Source of the DNA: Candidatus Nanoarchaeia archaeon
Lineage (GTDB): Archaea; Nanobdellota; Nanobdellia; Woesearchaeales; DATDTY01
NCBI GenBank assembly: GCA_035290625.1
Contig: DATDTY010000068.1
Location: 1 to 39,274, forward strand
Length of the DNA: 39,274 nt
Reading direction: 5' to 3'
Under the pieces are notes generated by a model. That model did not search any database, had not been told where the DNA came from, and saw only the letters and a program-made list of their open reading frames with translations. Of the stretch, positions 1 to 39,274 are shown one piece after another; the first letter of the stretch is position 1, and each line of letters opens with the position of its first letter. The translations under genes and the position numbers were made by a program.

Positions 1-3000
1 AAGATTGCCTCAACCGAGTACACGGTTGATTATGCGACCGGGAATGTGACCTTTAAGTCTTCCTATGCAGGAACAACGGTTCGGGCAGTGTACAGCTATG
101 GAGGGAAGATACAGATTATAGGAGGGAAGGCGCTGTCGAACGTCTATGACTTCATGCAGGCGAACCAGTCGGATGTGTTTACGACTGCTACAGGATCCAT
201 TTATAACAGTTATGTGGATTTCATTTTAGGGAATGGGACGCCAAGTTCCAATGGAAGGTTTATTGATGATACTGAGGCCGATTGGAACTTAGGTGTATTC
301 CTCAATACCAGCACAAACAGCTCAGGTAATGTTACTCTAAATCAATCTGGCGGAGAATATGATTCTGTCGGCAATTTCACAAGCCAAATATTCAACACGG
401 GAAATAATGCTACTTGGATTAATCTAACCAGGGGGTCTCTTGAGCCTGCTGGAACAAATATTACATTTAGAGTTAGAAGTTGTAATGATGCTGACTGCGA
501 CGGCGAGGTTCTGAGTGATGAGTTGACGTATCCTTTTACGATAAATACAACAGTTGCTCCTAATAGTAGATATTTCCAGTATCAAGCAAGGTTCCAGACT
601 AATGATACGGCTGCGACGCCGGTTTTGGAATGGGTTAATATTAGCTATTCCACTCTTGCAATATCGGGCGACAAGGGAGTTATTAACGAGTCAACAACTA
701 AAACACTAGATTTCAAGAGTGGGTTTGGTTGGAGTACAACTTCAAGCGGAGGGATATCAAGGAATGTTGATTCAAATACATGGAACTTTGTTTGGAGAGG
801 GCCAAGTAATGGAACCTTTAATAGGCAGTACAGCTATGATACTACGGTTAAAGATACGGGAGGCAATGCTGTGGTGAACACGACGGCGGAGCTCCTGGAT
901 ATTTTTGGAATGTCGCTCTTTACTGATTTGACGAATTCCAGCGGATCAATACCTACACAAACATTCACGCTGTATACCTATGGGCCTCATACCGGAAGCA
1001 CACCCACAAGCCAAGGTCCCTTCACATTGTATCTTAGAAAATATGGATATAAGTTTGTTGAGACGCAGAAAGTGTTTAGCGGGAAAACAAGCGAGGAGGT
1101 TTCCTTGGAGACTGATTCTTTCGTAACTGAGGGGGTTTCTGCTCCGGAGGCGTTAGCGGTTGCCGGAATAAAATATAACGAGCCAATAAAAGTTGCTTAC
1201 GGAGAGGAGAGTAATACGAGTTTTGGAACTTCTGGGCAGTTAAGACATTTTCCGATAACAGATTCTGAGTATTTTGCATTATTCAGAAATGGGACCAAGA
1301 TGTTCTTAGGAACAGATTTCTCTGCGTTTAGTTGCCTATCGGGAGGGATTACGTTTACGTCAGATGAGACCGGAAATAATATAACTGCAGTGTATAGTTA
1401 CGGCGGAAATGCAACATTAGTAAATGGTTTATCTGATACGAGAACTATAGATGAATTATATGATTTCTTAAAAGCAAACCTGTTTAATGGGTTTAATACT
1501 TTGGACGGAACTGCTTATATATCAGACATAAATCTGGTTATAGGAAATGCGAGTGACACGGGTTCTTTGGCAAGCCCAACTGCCTCACTTACATATACAT
1601 GCAGCCGTTCTTCTGTGTTTAGTTCTGTGGGGGGGTTCTTGGACTTGTTAGGAACAACGGTTGGGGGGGCCCTAAGTATGCGTTCCCAAACTGGGTATTC
1701 TTATTCTCCAGGAAAACAGGTTGTTGCCTATACAACTGTATTAGATGCTGACTCCAGATTAGTCAGCGCCACGGTTTCTGCCAAGATGTACTATCCTAAC
1801 ACGACATTATTAACAAGCGGGGTCGCGACAGCGGTAAGCACAGGCCGGTTCCTCTTCGCTTATAGCCTGCCTCTCACTGTGCCTGAAGGAACCTATACCG
1901 TTACATTCGATGCAAACTATCTATCTGGCGAAGTACATGACACAATAGCCTTCTTGGTCGAGAAATCTTTGGCACCGCTAAATATTCTTGCAACGGTTGG
2001 GTCAATATACTCTCCGGGCGACGAGGTAATAGTTTACCCAACAATAACAAATTCAAACGGAAATCTGGTAAATGCGACCGTCAATGTTTCTTTATATTAT
2101 CCCAATGCTACGTTGTTAAATAAAAGTAGTGCAACAGAGCAGGCTCTTGGGAGGTATAGATATAATGTTACGCTTCCCTATTCAGCTCCTGTTGGCACCT
2201 ACGAGGCCAGGCTAGACGCAAGCTATTCCAATGATGAATCCCACTATTCGTTGTCGTTTGTAGTAAGCTCTGTTCTGCAGGAGATCTTTACTCTTGTGAA
2301 TAACACCAATACGACCCTAGACACAATTAACACGAAGATAGATATTATAAACATGACTGTGAATGATATTAAAAACACAGTAAATATTATCAATTCAACA
2401 GTCACGAGGATTGGGGTTAATGTTACAAGTATCCATGGAACACTTAATACTGTTAATAGTACGGTAAACAATATTGACTCAACGGTTGCGCTTATTAATT
2501 CGACGGCCAATATCATTAATTCTAATGTGACGTATATGGGCACGTTGCTTGAGAATATCAACAGTAGCGTCCATTTCATCAATAGCACTATTGTTTATAT
2601 TAACAGCACGGTCACTAATATCAATACTACGACTACCAATAGCGGGAGCACGATAACACTAATCAATAGCACAATATATGACGTCTTTGATCTTGTTGCT
2701 GGAAAACTAAGTATAGACGTAGATACCGGAAGCAGATACGCCCCGGGAGATAATGTAAACATTGTAGTTACTGCCACGAATAGCAGTGGAGGCCTTATCA
2801 ATGCTTCAGTTGATGTTGAGGTGTTCTATCCAAATGCAACGAGACTAAATAATGGAAGCGCACAGCTTGGGGCCGCAGGCAGGCTTAATTACAGTTTCCC
2901 ATTGGATGCCTCTACGCCATTAGGGACGTACAGGGCAAATGTTGACGCGAATTACTCAGCGAATGAGATTCATAAGAACGTTGTGTTCCTTGTAGCGACC

Positions 3001-6000
3001 GCAACTGCGGCTGTTGGCGGCGCTGGTGGGCTGCCCTTAAATATATACAACGATGTCGGAAAATCATATGCGCCGGGAGACACTGTGTATATATCTTCAA
3101 ATGTAGTAAACTCATCGGGGAGCCGTGTTAATGCGACAGTTAATATTACTGTTTACTACCCATCTGGATCTGAATTTGACAGCGGAGGGTCAACAGAACA
3201 ATCGCTTGGCAGGTATGAGTATAGTTTCGAAGCGCCAGCAACAGAAGGTACGTATAGTATAGATATTGATGCAAATTATTCTGGCAATGAGATACACGAC
3301 ACCCTGGCGTTTGTTATCACGACGGGCACGGGCGGAAGCAACGCCACCTTCCCTCCTCAAGTTATTGTAGACGCCCCAAGCACCATTAACATAGACACGA
3401 AGTTTGATATCATAGCCCTTACAAAGTCATCAAGTGGGCTATTAATCGATTGCACAGACGGAGCAAATATAACCATCCGGAACACGCTAAATAGTACAAA
3501 TGTGATTAGTAACGAGCCAATGAGCAAGTTCTCAACCGGATTGTATAATTACACTTGGTCTACTGGAACGCAAGCGACTTACTTAGCAACCGTAACGTGC
3601 AGCAAGATTTCAGCAATAGCTTATACTGGAGCAAAGGAATTCTCTACGCAAAATGTTGCTGGCGCAACTGGCGGCGGGGGGGCTGCTGGCGGGCTTCCAT
3701 TGAATATGTTTTCAGGTGTTGGCTCCTTTTACTCACCAGGGGATAATGTGTTAGTGGTTTCTACGACAACTGATAATAATGGGTCCTTGATTGGCGCGAT
3801 GTTAAATGTGTCCTTGTATTACCCAAATGCCACATTATTAAATCATAGCCTTGCCGTTGGGCAAACAATCGGAAGATTCAGATATAACTTTGCGCTTCCG
3901 CTCTCTGCTCCGATTGGGTCGTATGAGGTAAGGATAGATGCCAATTATTCTGGCAATGAAGCACACGATTCTTTGGCTTTTGTCATAAGTTCTGTACTTC
4001 TGGAAATATTTAACGTTGTGAATAATACAAATACTACAGTGAACACTATCAGCCAGACGGTTGATGTTATAAATACTTCTGTGAGTAATATTGATGCCAC
4101 CGTGAATGTTATCAATTCGACTGTAAATAGGATTGACGCAAATATTACGAGCGTTCATGGAACTCTAAATACAATAAACAGCACAGTGAATTTGATTAGC
4201 AGCACAGTAATGGATATTAATTCCACTGTCATTGATATTAACAGCACAACGAATACTATTAATTCAGTTGTGACGAGAGTTGATGCGAATGTCACGAGCA
4301 TACAAGGGACCGTGAACAGCATCCAGTCAAATATAACATTCATTAGCACGTTGGTTGAGAATATCAACAGCAGCGTATATTTCATTAACAGCACTATTGT
4401 TTATATTAACAGCACCGTCACTAATATCAATACTACGACCACCAATAGCGGGAGCACGATAACCCTGATCAATAGCACAGTATATGACGTCTTTGATCTT
4501 ACTGCTGGAAGGATAAGTATAGATGTTGCTACCGGAAGCAGTTATGCTCCTGGGGACAATGTGAATGTTGTGATAACTGCTATCAATAGCAGCGGCGCCC
4601 TTATCAATGCTTCAGTTGATGTTGAGGTGTTCTATCCAAATTCAACAAGATTAAATAATGGAAGCGCCCAGCTTGGGACCGCCGGCAGGTTTAATTACAG
4701 TTTCCCATTGGATGCCTCTGCGCCGTTAGGGACATATAGAGTTAATGTTGACGCGAATTATTCGAGCAATAGTGTTCATAAGAACGTTGTTTTCGAGGCT
4801 GTTTGGGTTGAAAATCCGGAAGTTGTTGTTGATGCTCCTGCCGTCATCAATACCGGGGTTCCGTTTGATCTAATAGCTATGATAAGGTCGGCGGGCGGCT
4901 CTCTTGTTGACTGCAGTGATGGAGCCAACATAACTGTAAGGAACACGTTGAATAAGACGGACGTGATCATAAATGAGTCAATGACTAACTTTGGCCTTGG
5001 GCTTTATAATTATACGTGGTCTACTGGGGCACAATCCACTTATCTGGCGATCGTAACCTGCAACAAGATTTTAAGTAAGGAGTATGTAGGGGTAAAAGAA
5101 TTCTCCACCCAGAATGTCGCTGCTTCGGGCGTTGGCGGAGGGGGTGGTTCCACTGGAGCCCTGCCTCTGAATATGTTTTCTGATGTAGGAGGATTCTACT
5201 CGCCAGGGGATGATGTGGTTGTTGTTTCAACGGTAATGGATAACAACGGATCTTTGGTTGGCGCAATGGTAAACATTACGCTGTATTATCCAAATACCAC
5301 GCTGCTGAACCACAGCCTGGCTATGCCGCAGGCTGTTGGGAGATTCAAATATAACTTTACGCTTCCGCTCTCTGCGCCAATCGGAACCTATGAGGCCAGA
5401 ATCGACGCGAATTACACAAATGACCAGATTCACGACAGTCTCACTTTTGTGGTAAGCTCAGCTATAGAAGCAATCAAGATGAATGTGACGCAAATGATAA
5501 ATCAGATTGATGGTGTGATTGTCCCGTCCTTAAAAGAGATCAACCTTACCACCCAGGATAGTTATGATTACTTGCTGAACAATATATTCCCCCTGGTTAA
5601 CTTAACAAACACAACGTCGTTGGATATTAAGAATGAAACTGCCTCACTTCTGCTTAAGTGGGGCACCTATAATGCTGAACAATTATACAATATCTCGAAT
5701 GTTACGTATAACAATTCACAAAGAATATTAAGTTATATCGGAACCCCTTCTGATGATGAATCTGCTAACACGCTGTTCGGTGAATTTGCTTATACCAAGA
5801 ATAGGATTAGCGATATCGATGCAAACGTATCAGAGATCAAAAGAATCGCAGCAGAGGTTAATGTTACCTCAATTATAATCAATTCAACTATTTCAACCGT
5901 GCTATTGGAAGTTGATGATTTAGAGGAGCTTCATCAGTGCGCCATAACCCCAAATTCAACCCTATGTACGCTGCTTAATGATATAAAATTAAACACTCAA

Positions 6001-8379
6001 AATATTTATAGTGCGGCCCTGGCTATCAATACCACTACGTCTGCCTTGGGCCTGTTTACAATATCTTCACTGGTTGCCGGCAGCCCGAGATACGCTAATG
6101 AGAATGTGTTGGTAGAGGCGAGCTTTACAACACAGAACGGCTCGTTTGTTGCTCCAGATTCGGTCGTTCTCACCATTTTTGACAGTAATAATAATAAATG
6201 GGCTAATGCTACACTAACAGATTTTACTGAGTCCTCTTTGCATGTTTGGAAGTACTCTAAATCTTTAGGGGCAAACCCAACAACGGGGATGTATACTGTT
6301 CACTTGTTGGGTAGTTACGGTGGAGTTAATGCTTCGAAAACCACGCAGTTCAGAGTAGCGACTGGGGGCCCGTACATGGTGTTCTTGGATTGCCCGCTCA
6401 CTGCTACTGTGGGTCAGGACCTGAATTGCAATGTGAGGATACAGGATGAGGGAGAAGCAGCAACAGAAAGCACCTGTGATGTTTGGGTGGATAGCGATGG
6501 CGATACTGAACTTGACGCAGGAGAACCGCAAACGCAGTTTAGTAAGAAAACCACTCCATTGCAAAATGTCACACAATCTGTTTCAATAAATGTTCCAAGC
6601 ACGTATGCAAACGGGCTCTCTATCGCACGTGTCAGTTGCAGCTATGCGAATTCAGCTCAGCCTGATTCAACTGCATCAGACAGTGTAACCTTTGAAGCTG
6701 GCGCAGAGGAAGCGCCAACCACAACGGGGGAGGCCGGTGGCGGAGGCGGCGGTGGAGGCGGAGGCGCGGCACCAAGCGCTCCGGCTGCTCCGGCACCTGC
6801 GGTCTCACCAACCGTGGACTTCCAAGAAGTCCTTGATGTCCAGTATTATCTACAAGAAGGAAGCGTAATCACTTTCAGTCTTGATGGTGTAAACGTTCAT
6901 ACGATAACTCTTACCAAGGTTGGAGAAGACTTTGTAATTTTGATGATAGAGACGACCCCCATAGAAGTCATAGCCAGAATTGGAGAGCCCCAGAAGATTG
7001 ATTTGGAAAATGATGGTGTGTATGACCTCCTGATAAGATTGAACGATATCATCGATGGTATAGCAGACATTAGCATTGAAAGAATAAAAGAAACGGTTCC
7101 TGGGGCTATATTATTTGACGTTAAGGTTAAAATCCTGCCTCGATATATGGAAACGCCTTCTGGAAGTTCAGTGGCGGCAGAGGTGAGCTTGTACCATGTT
7201 GGGGGGCAAGGCGTAAAAGATACAGAGGTTGAGTATATGATCAAAAACGCAAAGGGGGAGGCTGTTGTGTCTGAGCATGAAATTGTTGGAATTGAGAATA
7301 AACTTGTGCTTCTCAAGGAGATCTCGATTCCGAAAGAGGTTGAGCCTGGTGAATATGTGTTTTTTGTCGAGATGAAGTATAACCAAAAGACAGCAAGCGG
7401 CGCGGCGAGGTTCAATATAGTTGGGAAAGGGGTTGAGGAGAGGCTTGCGCCAAGCAGGGGGCCCTCTAGTCTGCTGATTGTATCAACGCTGTTGCTCATC
7501 ATGGGCGGGCTTGCTTCCTTGGCTCTGCAACTCAAAAAGGGAAGTATTAAAAAGAAGTATATGCAGATTATACGCATGAAAGCCTCGATCGTTTCCATAG
7601 CAATCTTGGCGGCGGTTGTGCTCGCCTCGTTATTGCTGAATGCGTCGGTTTGGGGGATGGTAAAAGGGGTATTAGATTCCAAGGAGGTTTACATTACTTG
7701 GGTGTTGTTGGTTGGCACCATAATCCTTTTCAGTTATCTGCTTTATGAGATCAAAAAGAGAAACTCTTCTCGAAATGGTAGGAGGAAACACGGGCTGCCA
7801 AATAAACGGAAGGGCGGCGAAAGGGCGAAACGAAGAGAGCACGAGTTCAGCGAGATGAGGGTTGCGCCGCCTGCTGAAAAAATACAGGAGATTGCAAAAC
7901 CAGACAGAGAAGAACGCACACAGGAGAAGAGGGAAGAGAAAGAAGAGATATCCGCTGTTCCTCCAGTCAAGAGTTCTGAGACTATAATCACTAAGCATTC
8001 AGATTACGTAGTAAAAAGGGAAGATAGCCTGATTACCAAGCATTCAGACTATATAGTAAAAAAAGAACCGGCAGTGAGTGGGGAATTCAAAGTAATCCCT
8101 GCAGAGAACGCGTCGGCGCAGGGCAGGACCCAAATAGAAGAAAAGGATCCAGCAAAAGAACTTTCAAAATTGCTCGAGGAAGATGGCATTCGCCTTGAAA
8201 AAAAAGAGGGTAAACACCCCCTTGAGTTAACGCCGATGCAGATTGCAAATGAGAAATGGAGGTTGTTAAAAGAATTAAGGCGGCTAAAGGAAGCTTACAA
8301 ACAGGGAGTTATTCCAAATGAGGGGTATGAAGAGACAAAGAATGTGTTGATTAAAAGGATACAAGATCTGAAAAGGTGA
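1..8379 (+). CDS. Giant repeat-containing surface glycoprotein, 5' end outside window
   Basis: The frame is open from base 1 (reading KIASTEYTVDYATG before the first GTG at 46), so the N-terminus lies outside and at least 2,792 residues are visible. It contains about eight Ig/macroglobulin-like modules that start with a [YF][SA]PG[DK] motif (near nt 1690, 2000, 2727, 3060, 3720, 4533, 5190; a weaker one near 6080). Between them are long stretches with hydrophobic residues every 3-4 positions, dense in N-x-S/T sequons (about 2280-2690 and 3990-4500). A second module type, starting VDAPS/VDAPA, appears near 3365 and 4830. After a Gly/Ala/Pro linker (about 6730-6810) come two more beta domains and three hydrophobic segments (about 7465-7530, 7588-7650, 7687-7748). 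A charged cytoplasmic tail follows, with a duplicated ITKHSDY motif and a SHOCT-like end (about 8245-8376). I infer a membrane-anchored, heavily N-glycosylated cell-surface stalk or adhesin. No exact family was recognised. Confidence 0.85.
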   Translation, partial: KIASTEYTVDYATGNVTFKSSYAGTTVRAVYSYGGKIQIIGGKALSNVYDFMQANQSDVFTTATGSIYNSYVDFILGNGTPSSNGRFIDDTEADWNLGVFLNTSTNSSGNVTLNQSGGEYDSVGNFTSQIFNTGNNATWINLTRGSLEPAGTNITFRVRSCNDADCDGEVLSDELTYPFTINTTVAPNSRYFQYQARFQTNDTAATPVLEWVNISYSTLAISGDKGVINESTTKTLDFKSGFGWSTTSSGGISRNVDSNTWNFVWRGPSNGTFNRQYSYDTTVKDTGGNAVVNTTAELLDIFGMSLFTDLTNSSGSIPTQTFTLYTYGPHTGSTPTSQGPFTLYLRKYGYKFVETQKVFSGKTSEEVSLETDSFVTEGVSAPEALAVAGIKYNEPIKVAYGEESNTSFGTSGQLRHFPITDSEYFALFRNGTKMFLGTDFSAFSCLSGGITFTSDETGNNITAVYSYGGNATLVNGLSDTRTIDELYDFLKANLFNGFNTLDGTAYISDINLVIGNASDTGSLASPTASLTYTCSRSSVFSSVGGFLDLLGTTVGGALSMRSQTGYSYSPGKQVVAYTTVLDADSRLVSATVSAKMYYPNTTLLTSGVATAVSTGRFLFAYSLPLTVPEGTYTVTFDANYLSGEVHDTIAFLVEKSLAPLNILATVGSIYSPGDEVIVYPTITNSNGNLVNATVNVSLYYPNATLLNKSSATEQALGRYRYNVTLPYSAPVGTYEARLDASYSNDESHYSLSFVVSSVLQEIFTLVNNTNTTLDTINTKIDIINMTVNDIKNTVNIINSTVTRIGVNVTSIHGTLNTVNSTVNNIDSTVALINSTANIINSNVTYMGTLLENINSSVHFINSTIVYINSTVTNINTTTTNSGSTITLINSTIYDVFDLVAGKLSIDVDTGSRYAPGDNVNIVVTATNSSGGLINASVDVEVFYPNATRLNNGSAQLGAAGRLNYSFPLDASTPLGTYRANVDANYSANEIHKNVVFLVATATAAVGGAGGLPLNIYNDVGKSYAPGDTVYISSNVVNSSGSRVNATVNITVYYPSGSEFDSGGSTEQSLGRYEYSFEAPATEGTYSIDIDANYSGNEIHDTLAFVITTGTGGSNATFPPQVIVDAPSTINIDTKFDIIALTKSSSGLLIDCTDGANITIRNTLNSTNVISNEPMSKFSTGLYNYTWSTGTQATYLATVTCSKISAIAYTGAKEFSTQNVAGATGGGGAAGGLPLNMFSGVGSFYSPGDNVLVVSTTTDNNGSLIGAMLNVSLYYPNATLLNHSLAVGQTIGRFRYNFALPLSAPIGSYEVRIDANYSGNEAHDSLAFVISSVLLEIFNVVNNTNTTVNTISQTVDVINTSVSNIDATVNVINSTVNRIDANITSVHGTLNTINSTVNLISSTVMDINSTVIDINSTTNTINSVVTRVDANVTSIQGTVNSIQSNITFISTLVENINSSVYFINSTIVYINSTVTNINTTTTNSGSTITLINSTVYDVFDLTAGRISIDVATGSSYAPGDNVNVVITAINSSGALINASVDVEVFYPNSTRLNNGSAQLGTAGRFNYSFPLDASAPLGTYRVNVDANYSSNSVHKNVVFEAVWVENPEVVVDAPAVINTGVPFDLIAMIRSAGGSLVDCSDGANITVRNTLNKTDVIINESMTNFGLGLYNYTWSTGAQSTYLAIVTCNKILSKEYVGVKEFSTQNVAASGVGGGGGSTGALPLNMFSDVGGFYSPGDDVVVVSTVMDNNGSLVGAMVNITLYYPNTTLLNHSLAMPQAVGRFKYNFTLPLSAPIGTYEARIDANYTNDQIHDSLTFVVSSAIEAIKMNVTQMINQIDGVIVPSLKEINLTTQDSYDYLLNNIFPLVNLTNTTSLDIKNETASLLLKWGTYNAEQLYNISNVTYNNSQRILSYIGTPSDDESANTLFGEFAYTKNRISDIDANVSEIKRIAAEVNVTSIIINSTISTVLLEVDDLEELHQCAITPNSTLCTLLNDIKLNTQNIYSAALAINTTTSALGLFTISSLVAGSPRYANENVLVEASFTTQNGSFVAPDSVVLTIFDSNNNKWANATLTDFTESSLHVWKYSKSLGANPTTGMYTVHLLGSYGGVNASKTTQFRVATGGPYMVFLDCPLTATVGQDLNCNVRIQDEGEAATESTCDVWVDSDGDTELDAGEPQTQFSKKTTPLQNVTQSVSINVPSTYANGLSIARVSCSYANSAQPDSTASDSVTFEAGAEEAPTTTGEAGGGGGGGGGGAAPSAPAAPAPAVSPTVDFQEVLDVQYYLQEGSVITFSLDGVNVHTITLTKVGEDFVILMIETTPIEVIARIGEPQKIDLENDGVYDLLIRLNDIIDGIADISIERIKETVPGAILFDVKVKILPRYMETPSGSSVAAEVSLYHVGGQGVKDTEVEYMIKNAKGEAVVSEHEIVGIENKLVLLKEISIPKEVEPGEYVFFVEMKYNQKTASGAARFNIVGKGVEERLAPSRGPSSLLIVSTLLLIMGGLASLALQLKKGSIKKKYMQIIRMKASIVSIAILAAVVLASLLLNASVWGMVKGVLDSKEVYITWVLLVGTIILFSYLLYEIKKRNSSRNGRRKHGLPNKRKGGERAKRREHEFSEMRVAPPAEKIQEIAKPDREERTQEKREEKEEISAVPPVKSSETIITKHSDYVVKREDSLITKHSDYIVKKEPAVSGEFKVIPAENASAQGRTQIEEKDPAKELSKLLEEDGIRLEKKEGKHPLELTPMQIANEKWRLLKELRRLKEAYKQGVIPNEGYEETKNVLIKRIQDLKR
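2300..2995 (+). repeat. Copy 1 of a long internal duplication in the surface-protein gene
   Basis: The sequon-rich coil plus the following beta module is matched by a second copy 1806 bp (602 codons) downstream. Around 2605-2695 the two copies are almost identical at nucleotide level, including the run coding for TNINTTTTNSGSTITLINST. Confidence 0.85.
4090..4801 (+). repeat. Copy 2 of the long internal duplication in the surface-protein gene
   Basis: This is the partner of the copy at 2300-2995. Alignment is in register at an offset of 1806 bp from about 2605/4411 onward. The upstream coil parts differ by small insertions and deletions in units of the short sequon repeat. The low nucleotide divergence suggests a fairly recent duplication or gene conversion. 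Confidence 0.8.
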
Positions 8380-37801: not shown

Positions 37802-38884
37802 TTATTCCAAATTCTGCTGGCTACACATTGCATGTATTCCTCCTGCCATAGCTTTCCTTAGATTATAGGTGTTTGCCCATTGAGCATAGCCAGACCATCC
37901 TTGGAGGCTTTCGTGTATCGCCTCATAGGAGTATCGCCCCCCCCCAATTTTAGACATCTGCGGTTTTCTTTCAGAACTCTTTTGGAATTTCCTTAGATTG
38001 CTTCTTCTTAATAGCTTATAATGGTAGAAAATTCTGTATCCTAAAAAGGTGAGTCCATTTCTTAGCGGCATTATTTTTGATTTGTCAGTGTGAAGTTCTA
38101 ATTTTAATGTTTTAAGATAGGCATTTATTTTGTTTTGGCAGTGTCTAAGCGTATTTTTATCTTCATGGAGGACAACGAAGTCATCAACATATCGTATGTA
38201 ATATTTTGCTTTTAATTCGTGTTTCACGAAATAGTCCAATTCATTGAGATAGACATTGGCAAAGAACTGGGAGGTTAGATTCCCGAGGGGCATGCCTCTG
38301 CCTTTTACTTTTGTATCGAAATTGCTGAGGATTTTTTGGATAAGCCGAATAACTTTTTCGTCTGTTATTTTTCTTTTGATAATCCTTATCAAGATTTGAT
38401 GATTGACAGCCTCAAAATAGTGCCTGATGTCTGCTTTCAGCGCATAGCCTTGTATTTGGTTATTGTTTTGTGCATTCCTGACTTGTTTTCCATTCTTTGA
38501 TGCTTTTCTTTTAAATCTGTCAAATCTTGTGATGGCATTATGCGCTCCTTTCCTTAGTCTGCCTGCATAGGAGTCATAAATAAAGATTTTCTCATATATC
38601 GGCTCAAGAATATTGACAAGAGCATGATACACAACCCTGTCTCTGAACTTAGAGGCATGGATTACTCTTGTTTTTGGGTCTTTAATGATAAATCTCTGTA
38701 ATGGTTTTGGATTATAGGTTCCTGTTTCTAATTCATGCCGCAGTTTTTCCAGTTCGCTGCTGAGGTTTTTTTCGAATTCAATGACATACCATTTCTTTGT
38801 TTTTCTTTTTCTTGCCTTTTTGAAAGCCAATTCCAGGTTTTCCGGAGAACAGAGTTTTGTGTAAAGATTTTTGTAGGTTTTCAT
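37802..38884 (-). CDS. Diversity-generating retroelement reverse transcriptase
   Basis: The 360-residue error-prone RT copies an RNA template repeat with A-directed mutation into a target gene. The palm motifs are YALKADIRHYFEAVNHQIL (first Asp, near residue 150), GRGMPLGNLTSQFFANVYLN (near 193) and YYIRYVDDFVVL (catalytic YVDD, near 230). The C-terminal SYEAIHESLQGWSGYAQWAN and TYNLRK are also typical. The GNLTSQ loop and short size without maturase or endonuclease domains are those of DGR RTs, not of group II introns. A nine-G run encodes IGGGRY near residue 316, so base count there should be checked. The template repeat lies 25 bases upstream. Confidence 0.9.
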   Translation of the reverse strand: MKTYKNLYTKLCSPENLELAFKKARKRKTKKWYVIEFEKNLSSELEKLRHELETGTYNPKPLQRFIIKDPKTRVIHASKFRDRVVYHALVNILEPIYEKIFIYDSYAGRLRKGAHNAITRFDRFKRKASKNGKQVRNAQNNNQIQGYALKADIRHYFEAVNHQILIRIIKRKITDEKVIRLIQKILSNFDTKVKGRGMPLGNLTSQFFANVYLNELDYFVKHELKAKYYIRYVDDFVVLHEDKNTLRHCQNKINAYLKTLKLELHTDKSKIMPLRNGLTFLGYRIFYHYKLLRRSNLRKFQKSSERKPQMSKIGGGRYSYEAIHESLQGWSGYAQWANTYNLRKAMAGGIHAMCSQQNLE

Positions 38885-38908
38885 AGGTGCCCAAGAACTT
38901 GGATTATT

Positions 38909-39030
38909 CCGATGGAGGAAGTCTCGTCTTTAGCAGATTTCGAGTTCGAGGGCTCCCTGTTGCAGTTGAGCCTGGCACCGCCAGCATCAGAGTCGAACCT
39001 GGCGACAAGCAGAGCAGAGTAGCAGATCCA
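38909..39030 (-). repeat. DGR template repeat (start not fixed)
   Basis: On the minus strand this non-coding stretch can be read as ...ALLVARFDSDAGGARLNCNR, EPSNSKSAKDETSSIG..., which is the typical end of a DGR variable protein (ARLNCN.PSNS...IG). Its Asn and Lys codons (AAC, AAA) supply the adenines mutated in DGRs. A TGA lies in the same frame just before it (39031-39033) and no start codon exists, so it is a template and not a gene. It ends in ccatcgg followed by a mismatch (aataatcc, not ggtacg as in the target), as expected for IMH* versus IMH. The left limit is only an upper bound. Confidence 0.75.
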
Positions 39031-39167
39031 TCAAGGAACTGATTCATTCAGTTTCCGCTGGATGTTTCCAGCTTTCACCATGCCTTTAGTGTTCGCGTAA
39101 TCACTACTTGCTATCGGCATTGTATTTTATGGCATCATGTAAGGATGCGCTGATGAATCTGCGTGTA

Positions 39168-39182
39168 GCCCAAGTTCTGGGC
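39168..39182 (-). other. Hairpin downstream of the DGR target gene
   Basis: Minus strand gccca-gaact-tgggc forms a 5-bp stem about 50 bases after the target stop. DGRs commonly have a hairpin or cruciform just after the variable repeat that aids target recognition. Its sequence resembles the ccaag-tt-cttgg palindrome found right after the template repeat (38892-38905). Confidence 0.5.
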
Positions 39183-39233
39183 AAGAATTATTTCTTTGTT
39201 CTCCTTTAATATGTTTCTCTTTTTCCCTGACCT

Positions 39234-39274
39234 TCATTTCCTCTGGAGAATTTTTGCCTGACGTACCCCGATGG
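39234..39274 (-). CDS. 3' end of the DGR variable target gene (cut by window edge)
   Basis: The last codons on the minus strand read ...IGVRQAKILQRK then TGA (39236-39234). IGVR at the end is the signature of DGR targets, in C-type-lectin-fold proteins that show variable residues on the surface. The preceding bases (cc at the edge) match the template repeat's ccatcgg, so the variable repeat must start within the first bases beyond this window. Rank as likely, given the tiny part visible. Confidence 0.65.
   Translation of the reverse strand, partial: IGVRQAKILQRK

Follow-up and report, generated by a model that had tools for sequence, protein, structure and literature searches.

The window, by which we mean the whole 39,274-nt stretch of DNA analysed here, is an entire contig (C68) of an 84-contig, 1.37 Mb genome assembly. 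Its gene content is cellular and archaeal, with GatD, a GatE-type amidotransferase, Cdc48, TruD, an H+-pyrophosphatase and a class II tRNA synthetase; a protein of more than 2770 aa with an MG2 domain (alpha-2-macroglobulin type) occupies positions 1-8379 and is open at the contig edge. In the final 1.5 kb, the minus strand carries in order the end of a target gene, a gap of about 50 bases, a folded RNA, a template repeat (TR), a 20-base spacer and a reverse transcriptase (RT) gene, and the contig stops at 39274, inside the variable repeat (VR). The first-pass annotation had placed a diversity-generating retroelement (DGR) at this contig edge in the order target, template, RT. The RT motifs, the non-coding TR and the target tail were all confirmed, about 70 relatives with A-specific TR/VR differences were found, and the order was verified on the minus strand, with mostly the same layout in relatives. 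The features of the locus are as follows.

37802..38884, minus strand: DGR-type RT of 360 aa, full length, with MPLGNLTSQ and YVDD; RVT_1 match at 4e-24
38889..38902, minus strand: 3' strand of the long-range clamp, CCAAGUUCUUGGGC, within the short spacer between TR and RT
38905..38910, minus strand: IMH*, GGAATA, at the 3' end of the TR; NNAATR in relatives' TRs vs NNGGTR in their VRs
about 38909..39018, minus strand: TR, non-coding; 5' boundary inferred to about 6 nt from relatives' TR/VR pairs
39014..39181, minus strand: RT-16 RNA (Rfam RF03019), read as the 5' scaffold of the template RNA; 81.4 bits against a gathering threshold of 50
39022..39031, minus strand: 3' strand of helix A, AUGGAUCUGC, closing RT-16 just ahead of the TR; ensemble expectation of 9.99 of its 10 pairs
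39080..39120, minus strand: inner hairpin domain with stem P3 (AUGCC/GGCAU), supported by covariation, with conserved AAAAUACA and GGUG flanks
39153..39162, minus strand: 5' strand of helix A, GCAGAUUCAU; changes on both sides at 10/10 pairs across 89 sequences
39164..39168, minus strand: box 1, CUACA (CYACA in the family), directly 3' of the clamp strand; both A in 89/89 sequences
39170..39182, minus strand: 5' strand of the clamp, GCCCAGAACUUGG, pairing with 38902-38889; cognate-specific across 54-68 loci
39234..39274, minus strand: 3' end of the target gene, truncated by the contig end; IGVRQAKILQRK and a stop codon in frame at 39272-39234
39274-39264, minus strand: 3' end of the VR including IMH, the initial 11 nt of the target tail, CCATCGGGGTA

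The RT met the criterion used for the DGR clade ([LIV]GxxxSQ plus YxDD), and the same RT occurs in the loci with TR/VR pairs; no tree was built. With the profile of the RT family, the best PDB match was chain 8ub7_A (E 1e-64), and the phage RT family phrog_1423 matched the window RT across almost its full length. RT relatives that are 47-62% identical are widespread among DPANN genomes. Within the RT gene, a run of nine C at 37937-37945 (G in the coding strand) is a possible slippage site or assembly error, and it sits where the RT has a two-residue insertion compared with its relatives. Two further RTs, at L033 9264-10922 (minus strand) and L036 7643-9076 (minus strand), have a C-terminal extension of 130-200 residues that looks helix-turn-helix-like by eye.

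The TR of the window ends in CCATCGG-AATA and its frame reads VARFDSDAGGARLNCNREPSNSKSAKDETSSIG, a peptide that matches the C-terminus of the target at L098. The target tail is in frame with a stop codon at its end, so that the VR is C-terminal in the target, and its IGVRQAKILQRK before the stop matches the tails of relatives' targets, which finish in LGVRFARKKISERKK and a stop; it resembles those of L027 and L060. The first-pass annotation had read the shared ccatcgg, followed by differing bases, as the IMH/IMH* pair. This reading held, since the window pair CGGGGTA (IMH) and CGGAATA (IMH*) follows the family pattern of GG-GGTA in the VR and GG-AATA in the TR found in 47/55 relatives. Taken by itself, the 7-nt TR/VR match in the window is weak evidence (about 6e-5 for a fixed position), and a chance origin is unlikely given the conserved IMH pattern. 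In the part of the published account available to us, DUSEL4 nanoarchaea are given TGGGGT as IMH and TGGAAT as IMH* (PMC4372165). The template had been placed at 38909-39030; its 38909 end stands, while the 5' end lies further in, at about 39018. In 57/66 relatives the TR starts 1-11 nt past GCTAC.

A script tolerating mismatches at A detected TR/VR pairs in 66-67 of the 87-88 loci with RT-16, and the 67 best pairs contained 906 mismatches at A and 25 elsewhere. In a scan with a uniform penalty over 71 loci, the mismatch rate was 0.49 at template A, and 0.012, 0.008 and 0.007 at C, G and T, respectively. When the base free to mismatch was varied as a control, A recovered 66 loci, while C, G or T recovered none. 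The membership of the window in the DGR family is thus secure on the evidence of sequence, and activity at the window locus is not shown. Pattern, blastn and homologue searches of its own genome found neither the target nor a second TR copy in the other 83 contigs. Because the VR is truncated and no copy lies elsewhere, A-specific mutagenesis of the window locus itself cannot be demonstrated. We infer a hypervariable binding protein as the missing target. No member of the FGE-sulfatase family was found in the genome, and the AlphaFold model of one relative's target, from a family of seven, reached a pLDDT of 49. Just 3' of IMH lies a weak inverted repeat (TTCTC-CA-GAGGAA), seen by eye only and without statistics.

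The position of the contig end was compared with that in 279 sampled genomes of the phylum. Of the plus-strand matches, 13/68 had RT-16 no more than 400 bp from the start of the contig, which for them is the target side; of the minus-strand matches, for which it is the RT side, 0/53 did (p 5e-4). Assemblies therefore tend to break at the variable repeat rather than at the template, which explains why the window ends where it does. Such a bias fits population variation or the presence of several VR copies.

Between target and RT lie about 350 bases, in which the first-pass annotation had seen no room for an Avd-like gene and had overlooked a conserved RNA. Most of the interval is the RT-16 RNA (39182-39019), whose outer strand pairs across the template. 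When the flanks of the TRs were listed, a conserved motif stood 5' of nearly every one, and Rfam identified it as RT-16. A covariance model of our own, built from 17 loci, gave 75.8 bits on the window element and detected 89 places in 100 DPANN sources, and most DPANN loci tested scored above or near the Rfam gathering threshold. Among other DGR-type RT loci, bacterial or viral, our model matched 0/63, and the Rfam model matched 0/13 other DGR-type RT loci. In 60 related genomes, RT-16 was present in 13/16 with a window-type RT and in 0/44 without one (Fisher 1e-10); the three RT-positive genomes without RT-16 held only RT fragments, most at contig ends. Across the 279 sampled genomes of the phylum, 80 carried RT-16. 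In a few relatives (L116, L053 and L063), the detected TR starts far from RT-16.

The structure of RT-16 was supported by two alignments. For helix A and P3, 97.5% of cells were paired in the 17-sequence alignment against 77.1% after shuffling, and 97.1% in the 89-sequence alignment against 72.7% after shuffling, with slid controls at 33-49%; the 89 sequences held 452 double changes against 125 in shuffled alignments. Because the 89-sequence structural alignment was made by fitting to the model, its counts are biased in favour of the structure; the 17-sequence alignment is plain MAFFT, yet the structure was read off the same alignment. All RNA helices are intact in the window.

A second pairing spans the template. 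In relatives, the bases just 5' of box 1 complement those just 3' of IMH*, with a second outer helix beyond; in one of them, for instance, GTCTTAG and CTAGGGC precede box 1, and GCCCTAG and CTAAGAC follow GGAATA. In the window, GCCCA-GAACUUGG pairs with CCAAGUUC-U-UGGGC to give 13 pairs and one bulge. Cognate duplexes had a mean of -22.2 kcal/mol compared with -15.4 when a locus was combined with the flanks of other loci, and none of 20000 permutations reached this difference. The same outcome (0/20000 in each case) was obtained for the inner register alone, with 6.3 cognate against 4.8 non-cognate of 8 pairs, and for the outer part, at -16.2 against -10.8. An unconstrained fold of the 311-nt window RNA gave an expectation of 12.9 of the 13 clamp pairs and 9.99 of the 10 of helix A, with a z of -4.4. 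Two local features weigh against this picture, namely that the C of box 1 stands opposite the first base after IMH* as a mismatch, and that a local hairpin, CCCAGAACUUGGG, competes with the clamp. From IMH* to the RT start codon there are 20 nt in the window, and relatives have a median of 33.5 nt between the end of the TR and the RT match. It follows from the clamp pairing that the template is looped out, with the folded domain on its 5' side and only a very short flank on its 3' side, and that box 1 comes to lie beside IMH*.

In most loci RT-16 and the RT gene share a strand with RT-16 on the 5' side, a position that would also suit a cis-regulatory leader of the RT mRNA (a riboswitch or attenuator) in an otherwise ordinary BPP-1-like DGR, with no part in the template RNA. 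We regard this as highly improbable, because RT-16 tracks the TR and not the RT, and because the clamp spans the TR. In one genome (G005:C22, loci L036 and L208), the RT lies on the other strand at a distance of about 6 kb, and RT-16 still abuts the TR. At eight further loci (L078, L083, L090, L102, L103, L106, L110 and L135), RT-16 and the RT occupy opposite strands, with a TR still beside RT-16; an alternative layout that includes L114 likewise has RT-16, mostly with the TR, on the strand opposite the RT and often 3' of it. Four cassettes consist of target, RT-16 and TR without an RT nearby.

L205 41-521: target, RT-16 and TR
L206 3352-3774: target, RT-16 and TR
L207 5757-6308, minus strand: target, RT-16 and TR
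L208 958-4406: target, RT-16 and TR

At L205, L206 and L207, no RT match was found within the 8-13 kb examined, and an RT is present elsewhere in those genomes. All four cassettes carry A-specific TR/VR differences, and action of the template RNA in trans is therefore probable. One further place, L204 5786-5937, has RT-16 with only about 40 TR-like bases and neither RT nor VR, and we take it for a decayed cassette.

We read RT-16 as the template-RNA scaffold of archaeal DGRs that lack a linked Avd, on sequence evidence alone and without data on expression, binding or cDNA. The interval from target to RT holds no Avd gene, as the first-pass annotation had stated, and the surroundings of the RT in 70 loci share no recurrent small gene; an Avd was not taken as a condition for counting the element as a DGR. 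We considered whether an Avd-type protein supplied in trans would leave the mechanism BPP-1-like in all but gene linkage. The genome does encode, at G000:C39:14237-14551 (L213 1486-1917) and unlinked to the DGR, a PF05635 four-helix-bundle protein of the fold family of Avd, and proteins physically similar to Avd have been identified with archaeal DGRs (PMC5006420). Against this, PF22296 (bAvd) is absent from the window genome, PF05635 occurs in 7/16 RT-positive and 8/44 RT-negative genomes (p 0.09), its best PDB match is an uncharacterised protein, and no small gene is recurrent near the RT. A trans-acting helper remains possible given the unlinked PF05635 protein, and a BPP-1-like mechanism with Avd in trans seems to us unlikely on balance. 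The gene for the PF05635 protein, on contig C39, adjoins a Kae1/TsaD-like gene.

Taken together, we hold it very likely that the window carries a cellular DPANN DGR in which one non-coding RNA bears the clamp, RT-16, the TR and IMH*, and in which the RT copies that RNA with errors at A. As far as comparison of sequences can establish them, the DGR anatomy, the A-specific TR/VR differences of relatives, the structure of RT-16 with its tie to TR and RT, and the clamp pairing are in place. The steps beyond them are a proposal. The RNA would run from the outer clamp strand through the RT-16 domain, the TR and IMH* to the second clamp strand, and the clamp would join both ends, leaving the template looped between the folded 5' domain and the short 3' flank. 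The RT is inferred to bind the RT-16 scaffold, without binding data. Synthesis of cDNA would start near IMH*, where the clamp would set box 1 (CUACA) beside it so that initiation occurs there, and box 1 is inferred to supply or position the primer; that one of its adenines is itself the primer is a guess by analogy. The RT would then copy the template with errors at A until helix A, by inference, stopped it and set the TR boundary, a stop that would explain why VR homology ends at GCTAC. The resulting cDNA would replace the variable repeat of the target gene. The wider form of this proposal, an Avd-independent class of DPANN DGRs in which RT-16 is a portable scaffold, a box 1 adenine primes, helix A terminates and RT-less cassettes are diversified in trans, is put forward only tentatively and has, in our estimate, somewhat less than an even chance of being right.

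Two other readings bear on whether the window holds a working DGR at all. The element could be decayed, with RT and TR persisting after the target was lost or the element fell inactive; no copy of the target occurs in the 84 contigs, and the nine-base C/G run in the RT could slip. The RT, however, has its full length and its motifs preserved, the target tail reads in frame to a stop codon, and the RNA helices are intact, while a contig break is what assemblers produce at variable repeats (13/68 on the VR side vs 0/53 on the RT side), so we give decay only a small chance. The RT might also be of a group II intron-like or defence (DRT) kind beside a chance repeat, its best NCBIfam and PADLOC matches being models of group II RTs and UG/DRT RTs. 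The NCBIfam matches all fall far under their cut-offs, however, and phrog_1423 covers nearly the full RT; the A-specific TR/VR pairs of about 70 relatives contradict a group II or defence RT, and this reading can hardly be entertained.

Retron msr-msd elements also place a folded RNA beside the RT, with long-range pairing of the ends framing the template. They lack A-mutagenesis and a target gene and their RT is of another clade, so the likeness to the DGR proposed here is one of layout only. With the DGR of Bordetella phage BPP-1, the window shares TR/VR, IMH/IMH*, A-mutagenesis and the RT. In BPP-1, RNA structure flanking the TR recruits the RT and controls where the cDNA starts and stops: a structured 3' spacer recruits RT and Avd and has an adenine that primes the cDNA, and synthesis ends at a motif in the mRNA of avd, the upstream gene that forms the 5' flank (PMC12875486). 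The window differs in its 3' spacer of about 20 nt, in its folded domain 5' of the TR and in the absence of a linked avd, and it has no structured spacer of the BPP-1 type 3' of the TR (20 nt from IMH* to the RT start).

That DGRs were already known from DPANN archaea, as the first-pass annotation had noted, is borne out by published examples with IMH motifs and orphan targets. The available part of the report on DPANN and ANMV-1 DGRs (Paul et al. 2015, PMC4372165) describes archaeal cassettes with IMH/IMH*, orphan targets and several DGRs per genome, in all of which they are alike, as well as partial DGRs with only a target, VR and cis elements; that part makes no mention of a conserved RNA 5' of the TR or of a clamp. 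A literature search that did not extend to the source description of RT-16 yielded no tie between RT-16 and DGRs, no clamp and no RT-less cassettes of RNA plus template. The novelty of the RT-16-DGR link and of the clamp is hence provisional.

The RT-16 family reportedly comes from work by Weinberg in 2017. By score (81.4 bits vs a gathering threshold of 50), the window element is a member of RF03019, entered in Rfam as an sRNA gene whose entry line names no function. In that model, which stops at the TR, the first strand folds into a local hairpin, whereas here that strand pairs across the TR. A function is thereby proposed for a catalogued RNA of unknown role, and the working of archaeal DGRs without a linked Avd becomes open to direct test. 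As a starting point for tools of targeted mutagenesis, a template RNA that is compact and self-clamped would be simpler than the BPP-1 system, and RT-16 offers a sequence handle for DGR templates, including those without a nearby RT or with a target lost in assembly. At another locus (L068 51-164), the Rfam model RT-11 scored 61.9 bits, below its cut-off of 143.5, on the same element that RT-16 matches, and RT-11 and RT-16 may be related RNAs.
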